Assembly (NCBI GenBank): GCA_020850575.1
Contig: JADZEJ010000006.1
Location: 1-64,000 of the forward strand
Reading direction: 5' to 3'
Length of the DNA stretch: 64,000 nucleotides
Source of the DNA: Candidatus Uhrbacteria bacterium
Lineage (GTDB): Bacteria; Patescibacteriota; Patescibacteriia; 2-12-FULL-60-25
Position 1 is the stretch's first letter; each line of letters starts with the position of its first letter. The notes beneath the pieces are model-generated. The model made no database searches. It had not been told where the DNA came from and was given only the letters and a program-made list of their open reading frames with translations. The translations under genes were made by a program, and so were the position numbers. Positions 1 through 14,093 of the stretch are shown in pieces.

Positions 1-46
1 CACAAACGCATTCCCGCCAAAAATTCCCGAATCCAAAAGGTTTTTC
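1..46. repeat. Inverted repeat copy A at recombinase 3' end
   Basis: Bases 1-46 match the reverse complement of 1417-1462 with one mismatch (position 39). The copy lies in the codons for the recombinase C-terminus (WKNLLDSGIFGGNAFV). It starts at the window edge, so its true length is unknown. Confidence 0.9.
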
Positions 47-1485
47 CACGCTCCGCGTGGCTCAAAAAGTACGGTTCGATCCTTAATTTGAAAGTTCGAA
101 CCGACTTTTTTGAACAAATGAAGTTTTGCTTCATTTGTTCCCTCGTTTGCCAATTCCATATTGTATTTCAAAAACTTTTCGGTAAGTTCGAACCGATTAT
201 TCGCTTTTTGCTCAAAAGCCGACAATTTCTCTTTGAGAAGCTGTTTTTGATTGACCAATGCACTTTTAGCGTCTCGATATTCTTCAAGCGACAAAGCACT
301 TTCAAGATAAGCATTCATCAGCTTCTCTATCTTGGAATCCAAAAGAGAAATTTCGGCTTTTGTTGAATCCGCAAAAAGCGTAGACGATTGGGCTTCCACC
401 AATTTGTCCTTTTCATTTTCCGCTAACATCCATTTAGCCCAATCGTCTGGCAAAGAAACTTTTTTGATTTCCTTTTGAATTTCGGAAGTGATGATTTCTT
501 CGCGAGTATATTTTTGTGAGCAAGGATTTTTCCGTTTCGTACATCGTAAATAGTTATGACCTTTTTGCGTTTCGGTGATAATAAAGCAACCACATTCTCC
601 GCAACGGAAAAATCCTCTATACAAAAATGGTTTCAGTCCGCGAGACTTCGGTTTGGACTTTCTCATCATCACTTCCTGAACAGAATCAAAAAGTTTCTTT
701 GAAATAATCGGTTCGTGCTTGCCCTCAAAAATCTCACCATTGTAGAGCATTAAACCTGTATAGATAGGATTTTTGAGAAGTTTTTGATAATTCGACACCG
801 CAAGTTCCTTTCCGCTTTTTCGCTTCAATCCAAGCCCATTAAATTTGTCGCGAAGTTCCCGCAAAGTGAAATTTCCAGTCGCGTAGTCCTCAAATGTTTT
901 CTTGATTAAAGGTGCGATATTCTCATCAGGCACAATACGCTTGTTTTTGTTTACATAGCCAAGGGGAGACATTTGAGGCCATATACCTTCCTTCACTTTG
1001 TTTCTATGTCCACGCTTAATATTCTCACTTAGGTTGTCCACATAATACTTGGATTGCGAAAAAGCGATTGAGAGCATGAATTTGCCTTGCGGTGTCGGAT
1101 CAAACCAAAAAGTTGGAAATTTCATTTCTGCGATTACGCCAGTATCAACGAGGTAGATGATTTTTCCGCCATCTACCGAGTTGCGAGCAAGTCTATCGGG
1201 ATGCCACGCCAAAATACCAGATGCTTCGCCTTTTTCCATTCGCTCCAACATCTCACCAAACACAGGGCGGCCTGGTATTTTGGCGGTCTGCTTTTCGACA
1301 AAGACATCAACAACATCTAGATCTTCTTTTCTTGCTAACTCTTTCAATTCTGAAAGTTGGTCAGAAATACTACGAACTTGTCTGTCTTTGTCATCCGTAG
1401 ACTTGCGAGTATATATGAAAAACTTTTTGGATTCGGGAATTTTTGGCGGGAATGCGTTTGTGTCGCGCCTGCGGCGCGACCCCAT
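1..1485 (-). CDS. Large serine recombinase, C-terminus cut by window edge
   Basis: Site-specific DNA recombinase of the resolvase/invertase superfamily with long C-terminal domains; it would cut and rejoin DNA through a serine-DNA bond. Reading the minus strand from the ATG at 1485 gives 495 open codons with no stop before the edge. Seen: N-terminal resolvase core with FIYTRKST (catalytic Ser in RKS) and HPDRLARN, a recombinase domain (YQKLLKNPIYTGL), a zinc-ribbon CGEC followed by two more Cys, then a coiled coil. The start is the only ATG upstream in frame and has GGAAG a few bases before it. The first ~20 residues, including RRRR, are unusual and are encoded by a hairpin and an inverted repeat. 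It is divergent from the restriction operon. Class is secure; partner sites are unknown. Confidence 0.9.
   Translation of the reverse strand, partial: MGSRRRRDTNAFPPKIPESKKFFIYTRKSTDDKDRQVRSISDQLSELKELARKEDLDVVDVFVEKQTAKIPGRPVFGEMLERMEKGEASGILAWHPDRLARNSVDGGKIIYLVDTGVIAEMKFPTFWFDPTPQGKFMLSIAFSQSKYYVDNLSENIKRGHRNKVKEGIWPQMSPLGYVNKNKRIVPDENIAPLIKKTFEDYATGNFTLRELRDKFNGLGLKRKSGKELAVSNYQKLLKNPIYTGLMLYNGEIFEGKHEPIISKKLFDSVQEVMMRKSKPKSRGLKPFLYRGFFRCGECGCFIITETQKGHNYLRCTKRKNPCSQKYTREEIITSEIQKEIKKVSLPDDWAKWMLAENEKDKLVEAQSSTLFADSTKAEISLLDSKIEKLMNAYLESALSLEEYRDAKSALVNQKQLLKEKLSAFEQKANNRFELTEKFLKYNMELANEGTNEAKLHLFKKVGSNFQIKDRTVLFEPRGAWKNLLDSGIFGGNAFV
112..140. repeat. Perfect 12-bp palindrome inside recombinase gene
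   Basis: GAACAAATGAAG at 112-123 pairs perfectly with 129-140 across a 5-nt loop. It lies within the recombinase coding sequence. A shorter one, CCACGC/GCGTGG with a 3-nt loop, is at 46-60. Confidence 0.85.
1417..1462. repeat. Inverted repeat copy B at recombinase 5' end
   Basis: Reverse-complement partner of 1-46 (45 of 46 identical). It overlaps codons about 9-23 of the recombinase. An 8-bp GC-rich hairpin with a 3-nt loop (1462-1480) abuts it. The pair brackets the recombinase gene, so this could be an element end, a recombination site, or a duplicated gene end. Confidence 0.9.
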
Positions 1486-1514
1486 TTCGGCTTCCGATTC
1501 GGATTTTCAATTTT

Positions 1515-1728
1515 GGCGGTGTGTATTGGACGAAGTTCGAATGTATTTCGGACAAAATCCGCAGGATTTTGACGAATGACACTTGCGCCTCGCCCGTGCT
1601 CGACAAGTTCGCGCGGGGCAAAACCCAAAAATTTCCTATCATTTTTATTTGCGGCTCCCCCCACACCCCCCGCCGCGAAGCGGAAAATTTGAAAGGAAGG
1701 AAATTTTTGGTTTTGCTGCCGCCGCTTC
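1515..1728. repeat. Long inverted repeat, left copy (IR-L, 214 bp)
   Basis: Reverse complement of 7710-7925. The only differences I see are one substitution and a C6 versus G8 homopolymer length change. It encloses the HTH-mod-res-AAA operon. It contains the hairpin CAAAATCC-GCA-GGATTTTG at 1553-1571 and CCGC-GAA-GCGG at 1673-1683. No protein-coding function is supported; open frames across it are shadows. Confidence 0.95.
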
Positions 1729-1759
1729 AATATAAACATACTTGTAATATATCACATTA

Positions 1760-1789
1760 TTGTTATACAACACAATAAATTGCTATACT
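1760..1789 (+). promoter_or_regulatory. Promoter of the restriction-modification operon
   Basis: -35 TTGTTA at 1760-1765 and -10 TATACT at 1784-1789, 18-bp spacer. The expected transcript start is only a few bases before the ATG at 1802, so the mRNA would be almost leaderless. An ATTGT/ACAAT inverted pair (1759-1763 and 1772-1776) sits in the spacer and is a candidate operator for the HTH protein (inference). Confidence 0.6.
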
Positions 1790-1801
1790 ACATCTGTGAA
1801 T

Positions 1802-2008
1802 ATGAAAAGCCCAACATCCAAACTTGGCAAAAACATCAAGCGCATACGCGAGCAAAAGGAAATGTCGCAAGGCGACATTTGCCGCGCGGTCGGCCTTGAT
1901 CGCGCTCAAATGAGCAATATTGAAGCAGGCAAAGGCAATCCCACGCTTGCCACCATTGAGAAAATAGCCCAAGCGTTGGGAGTAACGAGCGATGAGCTTT
2001 TGAAATAA
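1802..2008 (+). CDS. HTH-XRE regulator, likely R-M controller protein
   Basis: A 68-residue Cro/C1-type helix-turn-helix protein. The fold is visible as IKRIREQKEMSQGDICRAVG, then LDRAQMSNIEAGKGNPTLATI and IAQALGV. It fits the size and position of controller (C) proteins that delay or balance expression of restriction genes. The start is set at ATG 1802, just after the promoter; a TTG at 1760 would lie in the -35 box. It is 2 bp ahead of mod, so the operon is probably autoregulated. A perfect 9-bp stem with a 3-nt loop (1860-1880) lies inside the coding sequence at EMSQGDI. Confidence 0.85.
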   Translation: MKSPTSKLGKNIKRIREQKEMSQGDICRAVGLDRAQMSNIEAGKGNPTLATIEKIAQALGVTSDELLK

Positions 2009-2010
2009 CT

Positions 2011-3711
2011 ATGACAGACAATAATTTACAAAAGAAAGTAGCAGAGCTAGAAGCTCAAGTAAGGAAACTCAAGAAAAGCAATCTTGGGCTGGTTTTTGAG
2101 GACAAAACGGAAGATGTCGTAGAGCAATCAAAAACCAAAGTTCCTGTTCTGAAAGAAGTCGTCAAAAACCGCCTCGATTTGAGCGCAGAATATCCGAATA
2201 ATCTGATGATTGAGGGCGATAATTATCTCGCACTTTCGGTTCTTAATTATACTCATAAAAAGAACATTGACCTCATCTACATTGATCCGCCGTATAACAC
2301 CGGCGCGAAAAATTGGAAATACAACAATGATTATGTAGATAAAGACGACGAGTACCGACACAGTAAGTGGCTCTCGTTTATGCGCCACCGCCTCAATCTT
2401 GCTAAAAACTTACTGAAAGATGATGGTGTGTTAATTTGTGCGATTGACGATAACGAACAGGCACACTTGGGCGTTTTGATTGAGCAACTATTCCCCGCAC
2501 ACGAACAACATGCAATCACTATCATTCATAACCCCAAAGGCGTTCAAGGCACAAACTTTTCTTACACTCACGAATACGCGATTTTCGTCGTTCCAAAAAA
2601 TCAAAAAGCAATCGGAGATCGCTCACTTTCTGAAGACGAGATTTATGTTTCAAACTTGCGAAACTGGGGCAATGAGTCCGAGCGAACAGACGCAAAAAAT
2701 TGTTTCTATCCAATTATCATAAAAGATAAAAAGATTGTTGGTTTTGGCGATGTCGCGCCGGACAAAGTTCATCCAAAATCGGCAAACGAAAAACAGAAAG
2801 ACGGAAGTATTTATGTTTGGCCGATTGATGAAAAAGGCGTTGAACGAAAATGGCGATATGCTCGCCAAAGCGTAGAAGAAATAAAAGATATTCTGCAAAT
2901 AAAAGAATCGAGAGGTGGTGTCATTCAAATAATGATCGCCAAGGATTACGGAACATACAAAACCGTTTGGATTGATAAAAAGTATGACGCGAGCGAATAT
3001 GGCACAAAACTGTTGCGCGAAATACTACCAAAATGTGATTTTGATTTTCCAAAATCTCTCCATACAGTTTATGACTGTCTCTTTGCCGTCGTAGGCTCGC
3101 GTCCACACGCAAATATTTTGGACTTTTTCGCTGGTTCGGGAACAACCGGACACGCCGTTTTAGAGATGAATAAAATTGATGGTGGCAATCGCAAGTTTAT
3201 CCTTTGCACCAACAACGAAAACAATAATGGTGGAAACGGCGGAATTGCCGAGTCGGTTTGTTACCCGCGTATCAAAGCAGTTATCAACGGCTACAAGAAC
3301 AAGAAAAGCGAAAAAGTTGCAGGATTGCCTAGCAATCTTTTCTACTACCAAACTGATCTTGTAGACATCGAGCAAATACATAAAGTGCCTGATGACGCGA
3401 AAATCCGCATTACTTACGAAGCGGGAGAAATGATTGCGGTGCGGGAAGATACGCTCGATGAAGTGGAGAAAAACGAATGGTGGCAGATTTTCGAGAGCAA
3501 AGGCAAGTTGACCGCGATTTACTTCAAGGAAGATAAGGCGAAATTGGCAGAACTGATTGCTAAACTTGAAAAGAAAAATCTGCCAACAGCTTTGTATATT
3601 TTCAGTTGGGGCAAAAACGAATACAAGGGCGAGTATTCAACGGCAAATATCAGGGTCGAGGATATTCCAGAGCCGATTATCGAAGTTTATAAAGAGCTTA
3701 ACCGGATATAA
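2011..3711 (+). CDS. mod: Type III DNA methyltransferase (adenine-specific, Mod)
   Basis: Transfers a methyl group from SAM to adenine in a short asymmetric recognition site, protecting host DNA and giving the Res subunit its specificity. 566 residues: N-terminal coiled coil, catalytic DPPYNTG at 92-98, a central variable part that should hold the target-recognition domain, then the SAM-binding FFAGSGTTG near residue 370. The catalytic motif precedes the SAM motif, as in beta-class N6-adenine enzymes of type III systems. It starts 2 bp after the HTH gene and ends 2 bp before res, so translation is probably coupled. Recognition sequence cannot be read from sequence alone. Confidence 0.95.
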   Translation: MTDNNLQKKVAELEAQVRKLKKSNLGLVFEDKTEDVVEQSKTKVPVLKEVVKNRLDLSAEYPNNLMIEGDNYLALSVLNYTHKKNIDLIYIDPPYNTGAKNWKYNNDYVDKDDEYRHSKWLSFMRHRLNLAKNLLKDDGVLICAIDDNEQAHLGVLIEQLFPAHEQHAITIIHNPKGVQGTNFSYTHEYAIFVVPKNQKAIGDRSLSEDEIYVSNLRNWGNESERTDAKNCFYPIIIKDKKIVGFGDVAPDKVHPKSANEKQKDGSIYVWPIDEKGVERKWRYARQSVEEIKDILQIKESRGGVIQIMIAKDYGTYKTVWIDKKYDASEYGTKLLREILPKCDFDFPKSLHTVYDCLFAVVGSRPHANILDFFAGSGTTGHAVLEMNKIDGGNRKFILCTNNENNNGGNGGIAESVCYPRIKAVINGYKNKKSEKVAGLPSNLFYYQTDLVDIEQIHKVPDDAKIRITYEAGEMIAVREDTLDEVEKNEWWQIFESKGKLTAIYFKEDKAKLAELIAKLEKKNLPTALYIFSWGKNEYKGEYSTANIRVEDIPEPIIEVYKELNRI

Positions 3712-3713
3712 CT

Positions 3714-6002
3714 ATGTTTGCGCTAAAACCATTTCAAGAAACGGCAATATCCGAACTCAAAGATCAGTTTTTGAGCTTGTGGAAATTGCCTAATCAAAAT
3801 ATCCCGCTTGTTTTGAAGTCGCCGACTGGAAGCGGAAAAACAATAATGCTGGCGCAATTTTTGCGCGATATCATGAGCGATCCGCGCTTTGCGGGCAACG
3901 ATGTTGCCTTTGTGTGGTTCTCTTTTAGCGAGGATTCATACGAGCAGAGCAAGAAAAAACTTTTTGATTACTATGGCGGCGCAAGCGAGCTGGATTTGAT
4001 TGATCTCAATGACCTTTCGCGTGAGAAACTTCACCAGAACGATGTCTTTTTCATAAACTGGCAGAAAATAAAAGGTAAAAGCAAGGACAGCCGAAAATTG
4101 CGCCGCGAAAACGAACAGGGTTTGACTTTTGATAATTTCATCAACGAAACGCACGAGGCGGGACGCAAAATTGTCGTAATTATTGACGAGGAACACATCG
4201 GAAGCGACACCGACCTTGCGCTAGAAGTAGTGGACGGACTTATCAAACCGAAAATCACAATTCGCGTATCGGCTACTCCGAAATATATCCCTACTCGCGC
4301 AGAAACTGCCGGATATATTGAGGTAAAGCGAAGCGATGTTGTCGAGGCTGGGTTAATTAAAGAAAAAATCGTTTTCCAAACGGAAGAAGACTTGAAACAA
4401 AAATCCGTCAAAAAACTCGACCAAGACGAAATGCTTTTGGAATTGGCGTATGCCAAACGGCAAGAATTGATTGATTTGTACAAAAAGCTCGGTGTTGAAA
4501 TAAATCCACTTGTTCTGATTCAGCTTCCAAACGACGATCAAGCAAGCAAAGAAACAAGCGACACGACCAAGCAAACGATTGTATTGGAATACTTAAAGCG
4601 TAAGGGCATAAAGAGCGACGAAATCGCCGTTTGGCTTTCTAAAGAGAAAGAAAACTTGGAAGACTTGGAAAAACACAACTCGCCAGTGTCATTTCTCTTG
4701 TTCAAGCAAGCCGCCGCTACCGGCTGGGATTGTCCGCGCGCGAGCGTCTTGGTTATGTTCCGCGAAATAAAGAATCCTACCTTTGCGATACAAACTGTCG
4801 GGCGTATTTTGCGTATGCCGTTTGGCACGCATTTTGCCAATCCCGAACTTAATCTTGGCTATCTCTATACTAATTACAAACGCAACGAGGTTTTGGCTGA
4901 ATACGCAAAATCCAAAACTGAAAATCGTCCGGCAATCAATGGTAGTTATCGCAAGAAAAATGTTGAGCCGATCAAATTGGAATCCGTCTTTATGACGCGC
5001 GCGGACTATAACGACTTGGGCGATACATTCCAAAATACTTTCAAGCAAGTGGCGAACAAAAAACTGGATACCAAAAAGCTCAATCTGAAACCGAAAGTTA
5101 CGAACGGCTTAATTGTAGGTGTAGAAATTGATGACTACGACAACTTTACAAAAGAGCTTTTTGAGGAGGGTGGAAGTTATGACGAGGAAATGTCTCGCCA
5201 CGACCTTGAGCGGTTGTATAACTTGCTTTGCTTCAAAATCGTTGCCAAACAAACTGACGAAAACCGAAAATTCGCACCGGAGCGTTCTTGGGGAAAACTA
5301 AAGACCGCGCTCAACATTTATCTGATGGAGAAGCTAAAACTATCTCGCGCGGATGTTTACAAAGTTATCGTAAACGATCTGGTGAGCGAAGCGGGCGCAC
5401 TTGCACCAATTATCGGCGACGCGCTTTTGGCATACCGTCCTATCCGCGAGCAAGAAGTAAACAAAAAGGCGGCACGCGCGAAGCGCGTGGAGCATGTTGA
5501 AATACCACGCGAAGCGTTGTTCTTTACCGATCAATACGAAGAATTGAAGGTCAAGAAATCCGCAATGGAGCCGTTTTGGTTTGAGAAAACTCAAGCAGGA
5601 TTGTTTGGAGGTATAAATAATGAGAGAAAATTTATTGATTTTCTTGAATCGCCCAAAAACAAGAGCGTCGTGTGGTGGCATAAAAACGGCGACACTGGAA
5701 GCGAGCATTTTTCAATTTCCTACTACAATCCCGACGAGAACAAAGAAAAATTATTTTATCCTGATTGGATTATCAAGACCAAGAGCGGCGTTTTGATTGT
5801 TGATACAAAAGCCGGAATTACCGCCGAAAGTAAGGACACAAAATACAAAGCAGAAGCTCTGCAAGCGTGGCTGAAAGGCAGAAAGGGCTTTGATGGCGGT
5901 ATCGTCGTTCAAGACGGACCAAACGGCTGGAAAATCAATCGCAACGCCAAATATTCTTTCGATTCGTCGCTCAAGGGCTGGGATGTTCTAGATTTAACTT
6001 AA
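3714..6002 (+). CDS. res: Type III restriction enzyme, Res subunit
   Basis: ATP-dependent SF2 helicase-like translocase plus nuclease that acts with Mod on unmodified sites. 762 residues: Walker A SPTGSGKT at 36-43, DEEH box at about 158, VSATPKY (motif III) and QTVGRILRMP (motif VI). The C-terminal PD-(D/E)xK nuclease is visible as FYPDWI (Asp near 684) and DTK (697-699). All catalytic motifs appear intact and there is no frameshift, so the enzyme is probably active. A perfect 7-bp palindrome with a GAA loop lies in the coding sequence at 5473-5489 (KAARAKRVE region). It is 2 bp after mod and 4 bp before the ATPase gene. Confidence 0.95.
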   Translation: MFALKPFQETAISELKDQFLSLWKLPNQNIPLVLKSPTGSGKTIMLAQFLRDIMSDPRFAGNDVAFVWFSFSEDSYEQSKKKLFDYYGGASELDLIDLNDLSREKLHQNDVFFINWQKIKGKSKDSRKLRRENEQGLTFDNFINETHEAGRKIVVIIDEEHIGSDTDLALEVVDGLIKPKITIRVSATPKYIPTRAETAGYIEVKRSDVVEAGLIKEKIVFQTEEDLKQKSVKKLDQDEMLLELAYAKRQELIDLYKKLGVEINPLVLIQLPNDDQASKETSDTTKQTIVLEYLKRKGIKSDEIAVWLSKEKENLEDLEKHNSPVSFLLFKQAAATGWDCPRASVLVMFREIKNPTFAIQTVGRILRMPFGTHFANPELNLGYLYTNYKRNEVLAEYAKSKTENRPAINGSYRKKNVEPIKLESVFMTRADYNDLGDTFQNTFKQVANKKLDTKKLNLKPKVTNGLIVGVEIDDYDNFTKELFEEGGSYDEEMSRHDLERLYNLLCFKIVAKQTDENRKFAPERSWGKLKTALNIYLMEKLKLSRADVYKVIVNDLVSEAGALAPIIGDALLAYRPIREQEVNKKAARAKRVEHVEIPREALFFTDQYEELKVKKSAMEPFWFEKTQAGLFGGINNERKFIDFLESPKNKSVVWWHKNGDTGSEHFSISYYNPDENKEKLFYPDWIIKTKSGVLIVDTKAGITAESKDTKYKAEALQAWLKGRKGFDGGIVVQDGPNGWKINRNAKYSFDSSLKGWDVLDLT

Positions 6003-6006
6003 AAAT

Positions 6007-7407
6007 ATGTTTATTCAGAAAATCGCAATCAAAAATTTCCGACTCTTTCCTTCAGATTGCGATTTTGTGATTGATAATATCAATACACCTGACGGCACAA
6101 ATGAGGGTTCGGGGTTGAATGTGTTTGTTGGTGAAAATGGAAGCGGGAAAACCGCACTTCTCGATTCATTTGCGCTTCCGATCTTGGAATATAAGACGGA
6201 AAATTTTGGGATAAATAATTTTAATGATACAGGCAAAAAGATTGAGATAAGCGTTTATTCTAAGGACGAGTTTGAAGTTGATGGAACAATGCCAAAAGGT
6301 TCGTTCAAAGCGAAAGGATTTTCTTTTGAGGCCGGTGTTCGTTCAAGAGGAACGAAAACATACCTTTCTTCAATCGTTGTAAACGATCAAAAATTTATAA
6401 AGGTTGATCCGTCAAAACCAGCAGACAACAGTCCCGATTTGAGGGTTAATGTAAATAATCCATTCAAAGGTAAGCGATTTAGCGAAAATGATGTGCTTTT
6501 TTTGGACAAAAACAGATTATTTCAAACTCGTTCGGGCAATTTCAACACGACACGCTTTGATCGGTTGATGGAAGATTTTAGTTACCAATATCTAAATAAA
6601 AGCTCAACTGCGGGTATTGTGAACCTAAACGAGGACTTAGACGAAAAAATCAAAAAGGATAAAGTTGAAAATAATTTTCTTGGCGAGGCAGTAAAAAAGT
6701 TTGAGGAAATAAGCGGCTCACAAATCAGATTAGATTTTTTGGATAATTATGAGCCATTCAAAGGAGCTTTCTTCGCCACAAAGAAAGACAATCATCAGCA
6801 AATTGCTTTGAGCAATTTAGGTTCGGGATATGAAATGATTTTTGCGCTTTTATATTCTTTCTACCTTGCCCGACAGAGTGGGAAGCAGTTGATTGTCCTA
6901 ATAGACGAGCCGGAGCTACATTTACATCCAAGATTGCAAGAAAAGTTTGTCAGTTTTTTGCTGGAGTTTTCAAAAAGCGCACAAATTTTGCTCGCTTCCC
7001 ACTCTCCGCTTTTGGTAAAACAGCTTTCAGAAAACGATAAAGTTAAGGTAAGGGTTTTAGAAAACAGTGGACAGGAAGTATCAGAAATAGAAAAGCGAGT
7101 TTTGCCTTATATATCCGCGAATGAAACGAATTTTTTGGCCTTCAATCTCGCGACAGAGGAATATCACAATGAGCTTTATGAGGAGTTAAAATCTATCAAT
7201 GGTGCTAGTAAAGATTACAAACCATTTGATAATGATTTTTTCGTTACTGCCAAAGGAGAGCCAAAAAATTCGCCTTGGAAAGGCACACAAAATGAAGTCA
7301 GTATTCATACATTCATTAGAAACCAAATTCATCACCAAAAAGATAATGGTAAAACGGAGTATAGCGTTTTGAAGTCGTCCATCGAGAAGATGCGAGGCTT
7401 CTTTTGA
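6007..7407 (+). CDS. AAA/SMC-like ATPase linked to the type III R-M operon
   Basis: 466 residues of the AAA_21/AAA_15 (ABC-type head) class. Seen: N-terminal IKNFRLF, Walker A GENGSGKT at 42-49, signature SNLGSGYE at 269-276, Walker B LIVLIDEPE at 295-303 and SHSP H-loop at 331. The C-terminus carries IRNQIHH at 437-443, which fits the R-x4-H pattern of HEPN RNases, and ends in a short helix with SIEKMR. Such ATPases accompany restriction or other defence systems; here it is the fourth gene of the operon (4-bp gap), so it is likely an accessory or independent effector. Whether the HEPN-like motif is catalytic is inference. Confidence 0.85.
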   Translation: MFIQKIAIKNFRLFPSDCDFVIDNINTPDGTNEGSGLNVFVGENGSGKTALLDSFALPILEYKTENFGINNFNDTGKKIEISVYSKDEFEVDGTMPKGSFKAKGFSFEAGVRSRGTKTYLSSIVVNDQKFIKVDPSKPADNSPDLRVNVNNPFKGKRFSENDVLFLDKNRLFQTRSGNFNTTRFDRLMEDFSYQYLNKSSTAGIVNLNEDLDEKIKKDKVENNFLGEAVKKFEEISGSQIRLDFLDNYEPFKGAFFATKKDNHQQIALSNLGSGYEMIFALLYSFYLARQSGKQLIVLIDEPELHLHPRLQEKFVSFLLEFSKSAQILLASHSPLLVKQLSENDKVKVRVLENSGQEVSEIEKRVLPYISANETNFLAFNLATEEYHNELYEELKSINGASKDYKPFDNDFFVTAKGEPKNSPWKGTQNEVSIHTFIRNQIHHQKDNGKTEYSVLKSSIEKMRGFF

Positions 7408-7709
7408 TTTGGAGGGAGCCGCCAGCGATAGCAGACGGTTTCTTGTGCGCGCACTGGGTGGGTGGGGCAAGCACAAAGAGTTACCACAGACACCGCCGAA
7501 GCCACAGAGTGAACACGAAGCAACACCGAGCAGGCATCACGAGCGGAGCGAGCGGCCAGTGCGAGGTGTTTGCGAAGTGTGAGCGGACTATCGAATTACC
7601 ACAAAACGCGAAGACGGGAGCGCCTCGCGCCGACGCAAACGACGGAGAAAAGGCGGGCGTAAACTCACCAAAAATGCTAAACTATACTTATTAGCCTTTT
7701 TGGAGGAGT
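7408..7709. other. GC-rich noncoding spacer after the R-M operon
   Basis: About 300 bp between the ATPase stop and IR-R. It is richer in G+C than the flanking genes, with GAGCGGAGCGAGCG-like and CCACAGA-like strings. Short open frames exist in several readings but none has a recognisable domain, ribosome binding site or consistent codon use. I see no gene. Confidence 0.6.
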
Positions 7710-7925
7710 GAAGCGGCGGCAGCAAAACCAAAAATTTCCTTCCTTTCAAATTTTCCGCTTCGCGGCGGGGGGGGTGTGGGGGGAGCCGCAAATAAAAATG
7801 ATAGGAAATTTTTGGGTTTTGCCCCGCGCGAGCTTGTCGAGCACGGGCGAGGCGCAAGTGTCATTCGTCAAAATCCTGCGGATTTTGTCCGAAATACATT
7901 CGAACTTCGTCCAATACACACCGCC
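7710..7925. repeat. Long inverted repeat, right copy (IR-R, 216 bp)
   Basis: Partner of 1515-1728 in opposite orientation, about 99% identical. The outer end of both copies is CTTCGTCCAATACACACCGC plus a final C. The same 8-bp hairpin as in the left copy is at 7869-7887. Flanking DNA differs beyond 7925, so this is a sharp repeat boundary. Confidence 0.95.
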
Positions 7926-8000
7926 ATAACAACTTTTCATCGATGTCAATTCACTTACCTAAGAAGATAGTGTAATTCGGATTCCTAAAGCTATAACTAA

Positions 8001-8028
8001 AAATACACGAGTAATCGTGTATTTTTTT
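8001..8028 (+). terminator. Rho-independent terminator, probably bidirectional
   Basis: AAATACACGA (8001-8010), GTAA loop, TCGTGTATTT (8015-8024), then a T run. Runs of A before the stem make it usable from the minus strand too, where it would follow the VOC genes. Confidence 0.75.
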
Positions 8029-8121
8029 GTCTCCATATTATTTAATCCTTTTTATCTTACCTTTCATTTTTACAATATTTTTGTATTCCAGCTGTATTTT
8101 CTCATTTTTTGTAATTAGCAT

Positions 8122-8217
8122 TTAAGGAGTAGTCCGTTCCATTAAAGGATTAAAATCTATGGCTGTATTCCAAACTTTTTCAAGTGAAGCATTTATTTTA
8201 TATGTAAATTTATTTTT
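8122..8217 (-). pseudogene. Possible START/SRPBCC-like N-terminal remnant
   Basis: Directly after the VOC stop, in the same frame, the minus strand reads about 30 codons including YKINASLEKVWNTAIDF, which resembles the first strand and helix of SRPBCC-fold proteins. It lacks a start codon and ends in a stop. It may be a leftover of a deleted gene; chance is possible. Confidence 0.3.
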
Positions 8218-8223
8218 ATATTG

Positions 8224-8682
8224 TTATTTCTCTAAATCGGCAATTATAATTTTCTTCATTTGATACATTGCTCGCATAGCATAGTCTCTTTTTTCCTTAT
8301 CTCCACTCGTCGAAAGCTCACGTAATTTTTTTGGTTCAATTTGCCAGGAAAGCCCGTATTTATCTTTACACCAACCACAGACACTTTCAGACCCACCATT
8401 TGTAGTAAGAACATTCCAATAATAATCTGTCTCTTCTTGATCATCTGTACTTATTGTGAGAGATATTGCTTCTGTGAATTTAAATAGAGGTCCAGCGGCA
8501 AGCATGTCATAATTTTTACCAAATATCTCTACGGTCGCAAACTGATATTCTCCACCCGGACCATTTTCCAGATCGCCTAAATAGATAACTTTGATATTAT
8601 CTTTAAAAATACTTTTGTAATACTCAATGACATTTGGTAGATCTTTTTCGTACCATAGACATGCATTTATTTTGTTTTGCAT
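8224..8682 (-). CDS. VOC-superfamily protein, PhnB/glyoxalase-like (copy 2)
   Basis: 152 residues of the vicinal-oxygen-chelate fold, close to the PhnB / 3-demethylubiquinone methyltransferase-like group. The family start MQNKINACLWYEK gives the chosen start at 8682; longer starts (8700, 8721) would overlap the upstream gene. YYKSIFKD, DKYGLSWQI and WCKDKYG are typical family positions. The substrate is unknown: members include metal-dependent lyases, dioxygenases and resistance proteins. It lies 4 bp after a second VOC gene, and the two form a pair likely expressed together. They may have arisen by duplication. Confidence 0.8.
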   Translation of the reverse strand: MQNKINACLWYEKDLPNVIEYYKSIFKDNIKVIYLGDLENGPGGEYQFATVEIFGKNYDMLAAGPLFKFTEAISLTISTDDQEETDYYWNVLTTNGGSESVCGWCKDKYGLSWQIEPKKLRELSTSGDKEKRDYAMRAMYQMKKIIIADLEK

Positions 8683-12629: not shown

Positions 12630-14093
12630 ATGGAAGATTTTCCAATTTGGCTCCGTGCAAACCACTGGATAAATGCCGTCCTCATGATTTTCATCATCCG
12701 TTCAGGAATACAAATTTTATTCGATCATCCCAAACTCTATTGGAATGACGATTCAACTCCCGGTACTGAATGGTTAAAATTCGGAAAAAAAATAATGCCA
12801 AAAAATAAAATATGGACATCTCACGATGAAGAAGAAGATATAAATTCAATAGTTGCACTCCCTGGAAAAAAAGGAAATCTCGGATCAGGTCGACGGTGGC
12901 ACTTTTTAACGGCATCAATCTGGCTCATAAATGGCATGGTTTATATTGTCTTATTATTTGCAACAGGAATATGGAAACACATTGTACCGACATCTTGGAG
13001 CATAATCCCCGCTTCATTCCAAACATTATATTCGTACGTAACATTTCATCTACCTCCACCAGAAACCTTTACTCCTTTTGATCCGCTCCAACAGCTGACA
13101 TACTTTGCCGTCATTTTTATCTTTGCTCCGCTAATGATCTTAACGGGAATGGCAATGTCCCCTGCTATTGCTGGTAGATTTCCATGGTATACAAAGATTT
13201 TTGGCGGTAGACAGGGCGCCCGTAGTATTCATTTTATTGTAATGATTCTACTCGTATCTTTTATTCCAATCCATATTATTTTAGTACTACTGGCTGGTTT
13301 TCCAAGCAATATTGGAGCAATGACGATCGGACATGATATTTCAGTAAAAACCGGTTTAGTATTGTATACGGGTATTATTGGCGGACTTATCGTATTAAAT
13401 GTATGGGCAACTTGGTATACCTTAAAAGATCAACGCAGATTGCAACTGGCATTTGATACCTATCTCGAACCACTCATACGCAAAGTCTTTGGTCCTCTTA
13501 AATCAAAACAATTTTACAGCAAAAAAGACATTTCTCAATTTTTCAGAATCAATGGATATCCTCCAAAAGATACTGAATGGATAAAAGCGAGTAAAAACAA
13601 TTTTAAAAATTGGAAATTAAAGGTAAGCGGACTTATTGACGGAGACAAGTATTTCTCGTTATCCGACTTAAAAAAATTTCCAAAACAAGAGCAAATTACA
13701 AAACACAATTGTATTCAAGGTTGGTCGGCGATTGCTGAGTGGGGTGGTGTAGAAATTTCAGAATTCATAAAAAATCTACCGATTGATCCAAAAAAAAAGT
13801 TCATTGTTTTTTATGCCTACGACAAAGATGAAAACGGAAAAGAATACTATGGCTCCTTAAGTATAAAGGAAGCGCAATACCCACAATCGTTGCTTGCATA
13901 TGAAATGAATTGGAATACATTACCACTTGAACACGGAGCTCCACTTCGTCTTCGTATGGAATCAAAATTGGGGTTCAAAATGGTGAAATACATTAAAGAA
14001 ATATCATTCGTGGAACAGTTAAAAAACATACATGGCGGTCGTGGCGGATACAAAGAAGATGTCGAACATTACAGCACCGAAGCGTCAATATAA
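12630..14093 (+). CDS. Cytochrome b561-like / sulfite oxidase Moco fusion
   Basis: 487-residue fusion. Residues 1-265 form about five membrane helices of a di-haem cytochrome b561/thiosulfate-reductase type protein, with His in LRANHW, RRWHF, ARSIHF and PIHI as candidate haem ligands. Residues about 300-470 match the molybdopterin-binding domain of sulfite oxidases: ITKHNCIQGWSAIAEWGGV, where Cys361 would bind Mo, and AYEMNW...LEHGAPLRL. It should oxidise or reduce a small oxo-compound and pass electrons to or from the membrane. It leads an operon-like run with DUF488 and a P-type ATPase. No molybdopterin synthesis genes lie in the window. Confidence 0.85.
   Translation: MEDFPIWLRANHWINAVLMIFIIRSGIQILFDHPKLYWNDDSTPGTEWLKFGKKIMPKNKIWTSHDEEEDINSIVALPGKKGNLGSGRRWHFLTASIWLINGMVYIVLLFATGIWKHIVPTSWSIIPASFQTLYSYVTFHLPPPETFTPFDPLQQLTYFAVIFIFAPLMILTGMAMSPAIAGRFPWYTKIFGGRQGARSIHFIVMILLVSFIPIHIILVLLAGFPSNIGAMTIGHDISVKTGLVLYTGIIGGLIVLNVWATWYTLKDQRRLQLAFDTYLEPLIRKVFGPLKSKQFYSKKDISQFFRINGYPPKDTEWIKASKNNFKNWKLKVSGLIDGDKYFSLSDLKKFPKQEQITKHNCIQGWSAIAEWGGVEISEFIKNLPIDPKKKFIVFYAYDKDENGKEYYGSLSIKEAQYPQSLLAYEMNWNTLPLEHGAPLRLRMESKLGFKMVKYIKEISFVEQLKNIHGGRGGYKEDVEHYSTEASI

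Follow-up and report, generated by a model that had tools for sequence, protein, structure and literature searches.

The window analysed here is a stretch of 64,000 nucleotides from Candidatus Uhrbacteria bacterium (assembly GCA_020850575.1, contig JADZEJ010000006.1, hereafter C6) that carries a restriction-modification (R-M) operon between two long inverted repeats. We find that this inverted repeat is half of a larger design and that the operon belongs to a larger mobile element. We interpret it as an integrative element that is mobilised by the large serine recombinase (LSR) it encodes and occupies the 3′ end of a tRNA-Ser(TGA) gene; the integrase, bacterial and of the serine type, would truncate itself on integration and have a spare copy of its tail within the element. 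We give this reading a probability of about 0.75. As far as can be judged from sequence, the attachment site attP lies inside the recombinase gene and integration rewrites the end of that gene, the element keeping a second, inverted and in-frame copy of it.

Window position 1 is base 1 of C6, and the recombinase runs on into another contig (C2). C6:1-89 is the reverse complement of C2:1-89, and this 89-bp overlap joins both contigs into a complete recombinase of ~520 residues, whose 3′ end extends antisense into the tRNA-Ser(TGA) gene. The element then reads, in order, tRNA-Ser, R1′, recombinase (directed toward the tRNA), R1, R2, a helix-turn-helix (HTH) gene, mod, res, AAA, R2′ and host DNA. 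R1′ directly follows the tRNA-Ser gene. Its inverted copy R1 is found at the N-terminal side of the recombinase, where it abuts R2 at the core GGCGG. R1 and R2 represent the two halves of attP, a complete inverted attP (R1/R2) being located inside the element. The mobile unit extends from the tRNA-Ser 3′ end to a right edge at 7925. The features of the recombinase half and of the two edges are as follows.

1-1485, minus strand: large serine recombinase (Pfam Resolvase, Recombinase and Zn_ribbon_recom); 3′ end on C2 via the 89-bp overlap.
1417-1519, plus strand: R1, recombinase N-terminal side; inverted copy of C2:44-146 (directly past the tRNA-Ser 3′ end), 98-100% identity.
1490-1545 (outer limits approximate), plus strand: putative attI, internal intact attP-type site R1/R2; core GGCGG at 1515-1519; inverted with respect to the attP of the predicted circle.
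1515-1729, plus strand: R2, left repeat copy; its first codons correspond to the recombinase C-terminal tail RCVLDEVRMYFGQNPQDFDE-stop.
1517-1579, plus strand: part of R2 that codes for the recombinase tail, continuing the frame of the recombinase end through the core; within the open reading frame (ORF) 1157-1579.
7709-7925, minus strand: R2′, right repeat copy and outer P arm of the element (repeat search and genome search).
7890-7960 (outer limits approximate), plus strand: attR region ...TTCGAACTTCGTCCAATACACACCGCC/ATAACAAC; element right edge at 7925.

A preliminary description of this DNA had reported the inverted repeat around the operon, with arms of 214 and 216 bp. The repeat is real and the operon does lie between its arms, which measure 215 bp (1515-1729) and 217 bp (7709-7925) and differ by one substitution and one change in the length of a C run. 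A repeat search of the window aligned them over 161 nt at 99% and 73 nt at 97% identity, far beyond chance expectation. Searching the rest of the 1.04-Mb genome, as that description had suggested, recovered the full-length repeat only as these two copies, with shorter matches at two places in C2. The large serine recombinase that it placed directly to the left of the left arm is confirmed by its three Pfam domains. It had further supposed that the stretch between the repeats is mobile. Mobility with the help of the adjacent recombinase is supported by the tRNA-Ser target, by an att-type core at both ends, by element-free relatives and by near-identical recombinases associated with other cargo. 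The boundaries proposed for it have to be redrawn, however: the mobile unit begins at the tRNA and takes in the recombinase as well. The element shows the LSR domain set, attL and attR sites sharing a core at its two edges, and absence of the unit at the site in related genomes; for the window's element this last comparison covers the left block only, and for other elements it covers empty sites in some relatives, not all.

Relatives were collected by sequence motif and by protein. A scan for R2 edges in genome contigs of 84,980 species matched at least 117 stretches. The surroundings of 140 occurrences of the R2 motif with at most 3 mismatches, including the window and one C2 stretch, were inspected; 138 of them had enough sequence. 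The protein searches provided set 1 (30 loci, from 379 Patescibacteria genomes) and set 2 (24 further loci, from 380 class genomes). Both consist of the top-scoring matches of each search, with 100-43% identity to the recombinase, and were not drawn at random.

The recombinase frame crosses the R1/R2 junction. The final residues ahead of the core come from R1; beyond it, R2 supplies a conserved tail of ~16-20 residues, RCVLDEVRMYFGQNPQDFDE followed by a stop in the window, and RCLLDKVRNYFEQNPND and RCFLDEVRTFFEQNPQ among those found elsewhere. The attP site (R2′/R1′) is therefore located inside the 3′ end of the recombinase gene and, because the R2 tail continues the recombinase frame, the recombinase is whole only when R1 meets R2. 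In 94 of 103 unique R2 sequences frame 0 reaches a stop after 14-27 codons (mostly 16-20), compared with 2% and 33% for the other frames. Beyond the scanned pattern, the entropy at the three codon positions is 0.55, 0.49 and 1.27 (97 sequences), and pN/pS is 0.26 in frame versus 1.05 and 1.25 in the shifted frames (32 clusters). An in-frame filter, which favours coding, had been applied to this set and removed 6 of the 103 R2 sequences. Repeating the calculation without it gave 0.33 versus 0.99 and 1.15 (38 clusters). Of 17 distinct loci in set 1, 15 have the tail motif past the internal junction, the other two (the window and L195) being tail-like by eye; in set 2 the motif is present in 15 of 17 loci, and of the remaining two L261 is tail-like by eye and L267 is not.

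In recombinases integrated at a tRNA this tail is replaced by antisense-tRNA residues, for example RDSNPR. Among 70 recombinase ends listed, which include places fetched twice, 63 were classed as lacking the tail, one as having it (L107), and six were lost at a contig end. Inspection by eye showed the tail also in L275, in L194 and in the first recombinase of L052, the last two having been classed as tail-less. In L107, L194 and L275 the recombinase end has no called tRNA. Locus L052 (1-8000) contains two elements in tandem at one tRNA-Ser, and the second recombinase reads into the R2′ of the first element and so keeps its tail.

The layout is recurrent in the protein-found sets. A tRNA was located at the recombinase 3′ end in 23 of the 27 loci with flank in set 1 and in 21 of 24 in set 2, the targets being tRNAs for Ser, Gln, Asn, Trp, Ile, Leu, Arg and Lys. 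At the N-terminal side a tRNA was found in 0 of 20 loci (set 2). The inverted R1 copy is present at that side in 22 of the 25 loci of set 1 whose sequence covers the N-terminus plus a further 120 bases or more (missing in L177, L179 and L191), and in 19 of 20 in set 2. The far end was checked for an inverted R2 in six protein-found loci: copies of 39 bp (tRNA-Asn, adjoining masked bases), 141 bp (tRNA-Gln), 47 bp (tRNA-Ile) and 229 bp (tRNA-Ser, L203) were observed, L212 (tRNA-Trp) has just 19 bp at a contig end, and L209 stops at the junction. For recombinases of at least 56% identity, R2 is found within 341 bases of the aligned N-terminus in 42 of 50 rows, several contigs being doubled and most rows coming from the motif scan. 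In the remaining eight (four places fetched twice) the contig ends within 171 bases of the N-terminus. The recombinase-half layout thus appears common to most of the top-scoring Patescibacteria relatives (100-43% identity), with R2′ and varied cargo where the far end is visible. Recombinase homologues (E ≤1e-30) occur in 205 of the 379 sampled Patescibacteria genomes, the layout having been checked for the top-scoring ones only.

Among the 138 motif occurrences, R2 is preceded by R1 in 39 cases (29 of one R1 type and 10 of another) and by other DNA in 99. Many R2-edge matches are located 100-150 bases from a contig end. By record title, 67 of the 80 R2-edge matches listed bear Patescibacteria or candidate phyla radiation (CPR) names, seven bear those of other phyla and six are unspecific or unclear. 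R2 edges were seen in contigs of metagenome-assembled genomes named as Bacteroidetes, Gallicola, Lentisphaerae, Actinobacteria, Caldisericales, Deltaproteobacteria and Legionella (L038, L049, L051, L068, L071, L077 and L086, respectively), which are perhaps misbinned Patescibacteria contigs.

The two copies of each repeat resemble one another far more than they resemble those of other elements. Over the first 100 bp, the median identity of the R1 pair is 1.00 within (18 elements) versus 0.68 between elements, and that of the R2 pair 0.99 within (21 modules) versus 0.65 between. Some process must therefore homogenise or exchange the inverted copies. R1 copies are mostly 75-145 bp long, and R2 copies ~200 bp in most tRNA-Ser modules, with 141 and 47 bp in two distant ones.

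Element-free tRNA-Ser 3′ ends that run into a homologue of an element's right flank were identified in three relatives. L220 carries the same isoacceptor as L197, the aligned flank beginning 11 bases in; L238 carries the same isoacceptor as L204, with the alignment beginning 35 bases in. In L231, compared with L199, the flank is aligned from base 1; its tRNA-Ser, read by eye, is of another isoacceptor and has lost its 5′ end at the contig edge. For the left block of the window, the element is absent after tRNA-Ser(TGA) in six of six family loci that keep the tRNA beside a DUF (domain of unknown function) gene. Element-free tRNA sites lack recombinase and cargo alike. L149, another relative, has an R2-like sequence 34 bases past its tRNA-Ser. 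A recombinase from another family (G222) shares 92% identity with the window's, whereas a neighbouring host protein is 41-63% identical within the host's own family; this difference points to horizontal movement of the element. In L068, a recombinase 95% identical to the window's is associated with other cargo.

The core is CCGC, and the central dinucleotide could be CC, CG or GC; the idea that it is palindromic was for this reason not adopted. The T-arm block (TTCGAA) lies 5 bp farther from the core in the attP arm (R2) than in attB (the tRNA). Over 17 elements at tRNA-Ser, the match between attB and attP arms is 0.597 at a shift of 5, 0.425 at a shift of 4 and at most 0.353 elsewhere; the best shift is 5 in 13 elements, 4 in three and 6 in one. 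The same 5-bp shift of the zinc-ribbon contact, in attP relative to attB, is reported for Listeria integrase (PMC3783163). By what is known of this family, the recombinase may read the tRNA T-arm as attB, with a zinc-ribbon contact 5 bp closer to the core than that in attP.

The assemblies show the layout and the missing tail directly; the circle, the role of the tail and the inversion described here are inferred. In the excised circle, a full-length recombinase would be made across R2′/R1′ and, with its full tail, would join attP to the tRNA 3′ end. Integration would swap the tail for antisense-tRNA codons and leave the recombinase changed or silenced, the internal inverted copy holding tail and attP together. 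Inversion between R1′ and R1, through homologous recombination or the recombinase, could then fuse the gene to the R2 tail behind the tRNA promoter, and the flipped gene would act as an on-switch for excision. The simplest explanation for an inverted spare is an occasional need of the integrated element for the full protein. We nevertheless hold this resurrection switch, in which the rebuilt recombinase is expressed from the tRNA promoter and excises the element again, to be a tentative idea with the odds against it.

Several observations weigh against our reading. Loci L020-L136 were picked via the R2 motif and are thus preselected; we therefore put more weight on the two protein-found sets, where the layout survey itself stops at ~43% recombinase identity. 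No tRNA was called in seven protein-found loci with flank (L174, L177, L191, L194, L266, L267 and L275), and among these the full tail was found in L194 and L275 only, the other five having no clear tail. Of the seven genus loci tested for L197, only L220 has the tRNA directly before the flank. It is ~500 bases off in L222 and not within reach in L221 and L224; in L218, L219 and L223, also relatives of the L197 host, the same tRNA-Ser(GCT) is found near the right-flank homologue in the opposite direction. Integration leaves the catalytic, recombinase and zinc-ribbon domains intact, and the protein with a tRNA-derived tail may therefore remain active; in an AlphaFold model (pTM 0.31) the tail is only a low-confidence helix (pLDDT 35-44). 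Neither an excised circle nor an inverted isomer was seen in the data, which consist of assemblies only. The lack of a flipped isomer fits a rare or self-removing state and equally fits no inversion at all. If both attP copies of the circle were used equally, half of the integrants would be flipped; as none was seen, selection or a block must be assumed. Finally, some repeat pairs are mismatched, R1 in L066 and L054 and R2 in L026, L064 and L085.

The element could, on an alternative that we find possible but not probable, be an ordinary LSR genomic island whose internal attP is an operator or promoter between divergent genes, allowing autoregulation by bound integrase, and never inverts. Recombinase and cargo do diverge from the R1/R2 junction, and the consistent lack of a tRNA at the recombinase N-terminal side agrees with this explanation. 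Taken alone, it leaves unexplained why the copies extend well past an att site and why the tail is kept in the recombinase frame at the internal copy. Chromosomal inversion between the internal attP and a second tRNA-Ser, which predicts a tRNA at the N-terminus, was rejected on the same count of 0 in 20.

Somewhat less probable still is that homologous recombination between co-resident or incoming elements swaps cargo modules (R2 to R2′) and recombinase modules (R1 to R1′), the inverted order avoiding loop-out deletion. The mismatched pairs listed above look like mosaicism and speak for such exchange, as do the L068 recombinase with its other cargo and the tandem array of L052. A general role in homology would by itself predict no conserved tail frame. 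Module swapping is compatible with a self-truncating integrase, the two being not exclusive.

The cargo half bears on the remaining explanations. In the window it comprises the following genes.

1802-2008, plus strand: small Xre-family HTH protein (Pfam HTH_3), first gene past R2; this position recurs in other modules.
2011-3711, plus strand: type III DNA methyltransferase (Mod), cargo (PADLOC MTase_III 3.2e-67; Pfam N6_N4_Mtase).
3714-6002, plus strand: type III restriction subunit (Res), cargo (PADLOC REase_III 3.1e-17; Pfam ResIII).
6007-7407, plus strand: AAA ATPase (AAA_15/AAA_21, AriA/PtuA/GajA-like), cargo (PADLOC and Pfam).

With a Mod carrying the N6_N4 methylase domain and a Res carrying the ResIII helicase domain, mod and res are predicted to form a type III R-M system. 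The AAA protein is found in 5 of 379 genomes. We recovered 21 complete modules of 2.0 to 6.4 kb, with 48 cargo ORFs of at least 130 aa, 38 of which were covered by the Pfam scan. R-M genes are present in five: the window (type III), L068 (EcoRI-type methylase with GmrSD/HNH), L063 (CfrBI), L064 (MvaI/BcnI) and L197 (HpaII). The other modules contain transporters, methyltransferases, a lipoprotein, a carbamoyltransferase or genes without Pfam match. The R-M and AAA genes are exchangeable cargo. The HTH gene had been counted as part of the R-M operon, a view that is not supported: a similar small HTH of 65-82 aa opens 15 of the 21 modules, whose cargo differs (by eye; only the window's HTH was run through Pfam), and this gene looks like a component of the element rather than of the R-M system.

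ORFs of at least 130 aa point away from the recombinase in 41 cases and toward it in three, in the 20 modules whose recombinase side is known (the four of L034 are uncounted). A single complete module, L208 (9531-11615), has its sole large cargo gene, a carbamoyltransferase, directed toward the recombinase.

It is improbable that the unit is transposon-like, with terminal inverted repeats between which the cargo is mobilised in trans on its own. R2 and R2′ do resemble terminal inverted repeats, and in L034 they are present with no R1 recognised at either side. L034, however, starts 285 bases left of R2, which puts its neighbour out of view, and Pfam detected no transposase among the window cargo. 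An IS1595-type transposase gene was observed in cargo between R2 copies in L060 (5239-6033). Least probable of all is the earlier proposal of a phase-variable R-M cassette, in which the repeats at its ends would let the operon flip or move as one piece: near-perfect inverted repeats beside a serine recombinase invite it, but the cargo is almost uniformly oriented, the lone module that reads as flipped (1 of 20, L208) carries no R-M genes, recombinase and cargo are both absent from element-free tRNA sites, and R2 is just one half of an att site.

Compared with known systems, the element shares its LSR domain order and its attL/attR edges with serine-integrase islands and prophages of the phiC31/Bxb1/A118 type (attP x attB). 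It differs from this class by an attP within the recombinase gene, a second inverted attP, a tRNA 3′ end as target and its small size. In the integration-dependent immunity of mycobacteriophages, attP is located in the repressor gene, and it is likewise the C-terminus of a control protein that integration alters. The protein cut is the repressor in that case and the recombinase in ours, and we know of no inverted spare in the phage systems. Islander-type islands are alike in using the tRNA 3′ end and leaving the tRNA whole, and are usually catalysed by tyrosine integrases (PMC4383910).

A parallel in design exists with the archaeal 'suicidal' integrases of the SSV type (SSV1, pTN3, pT26-2), in which the att site also lies within the integrase's own gene, and this gene is altered by integration (PMC8371274). 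These are tyrosine recombinases, described in that review as exclusively archaeal, and are split in two parts. The element described here is bacterial and has serine recombinase domains; its catalytic domain is not split off, only the last ~11-20 residues being replaced, and it has an inverted spare. A literature search over titles and the starts of abstracts, without most subscription journals and bioRxiv preprints, found no description of it.

In Patescibacteria, a phylum known mostly from metagenomes, the element may rank among the main vehicles by which genes, those for defence among them, are moved. An integrase gene that is rewritten through the reaction it catalyses, a situation described in PMC8371274 as exclusively archaeal, can here be put to the test, and the element suggests how a single recombinase fold could recognise the T-arms of many different tRNAs. 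Recombinase predictions that end in 'RDSNPR', and contig breaks at these repeats, find an explanation here as well. The resurrection switch, if true, would resolve the maintenance paradox of suicidal integrases in a bacterial setting and with a serine recombinase.

The R2 arm (window 1511-1731) shows a strong single-stranded DNA fold (z -3.17). Other R2 types form long hairpins too, but these differ between types, and we therefore do not claim R2 as a conserved RNA. An Rfam search of window positions 1-8300 gave no match up to E = 1, and a promoter scan found 2 sigma-70-like sites versus 0.9 expected.

Some minor observations can be added. L127 (2147-3103) appears as a mini-element, in which a tRNA-Ser with a short recombinase-end remnant and an R2′ edge are ~0.8 kb apart with no recombinase match between them. 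In L028 (1364-1400) a lone perfect hairpin is formed by an R2 edge together with its reverse complement, and no element was recognised there. In the same genome as the window, C2:318269-318408 (L006) carries a second R2 edge, of another R2 type, beside copper-ATPase-like and CsoR-like genes (named by eye) and followed by the contig end; a second element, mostly unassembled, is probably located at the right end of C2. Further along the window, an ORF at 12630-14093 looks by eye like a fusion between a membrane protein of the cytochrome b561 type and a molybdopterin-type domain, which is unusual for so small a genome.

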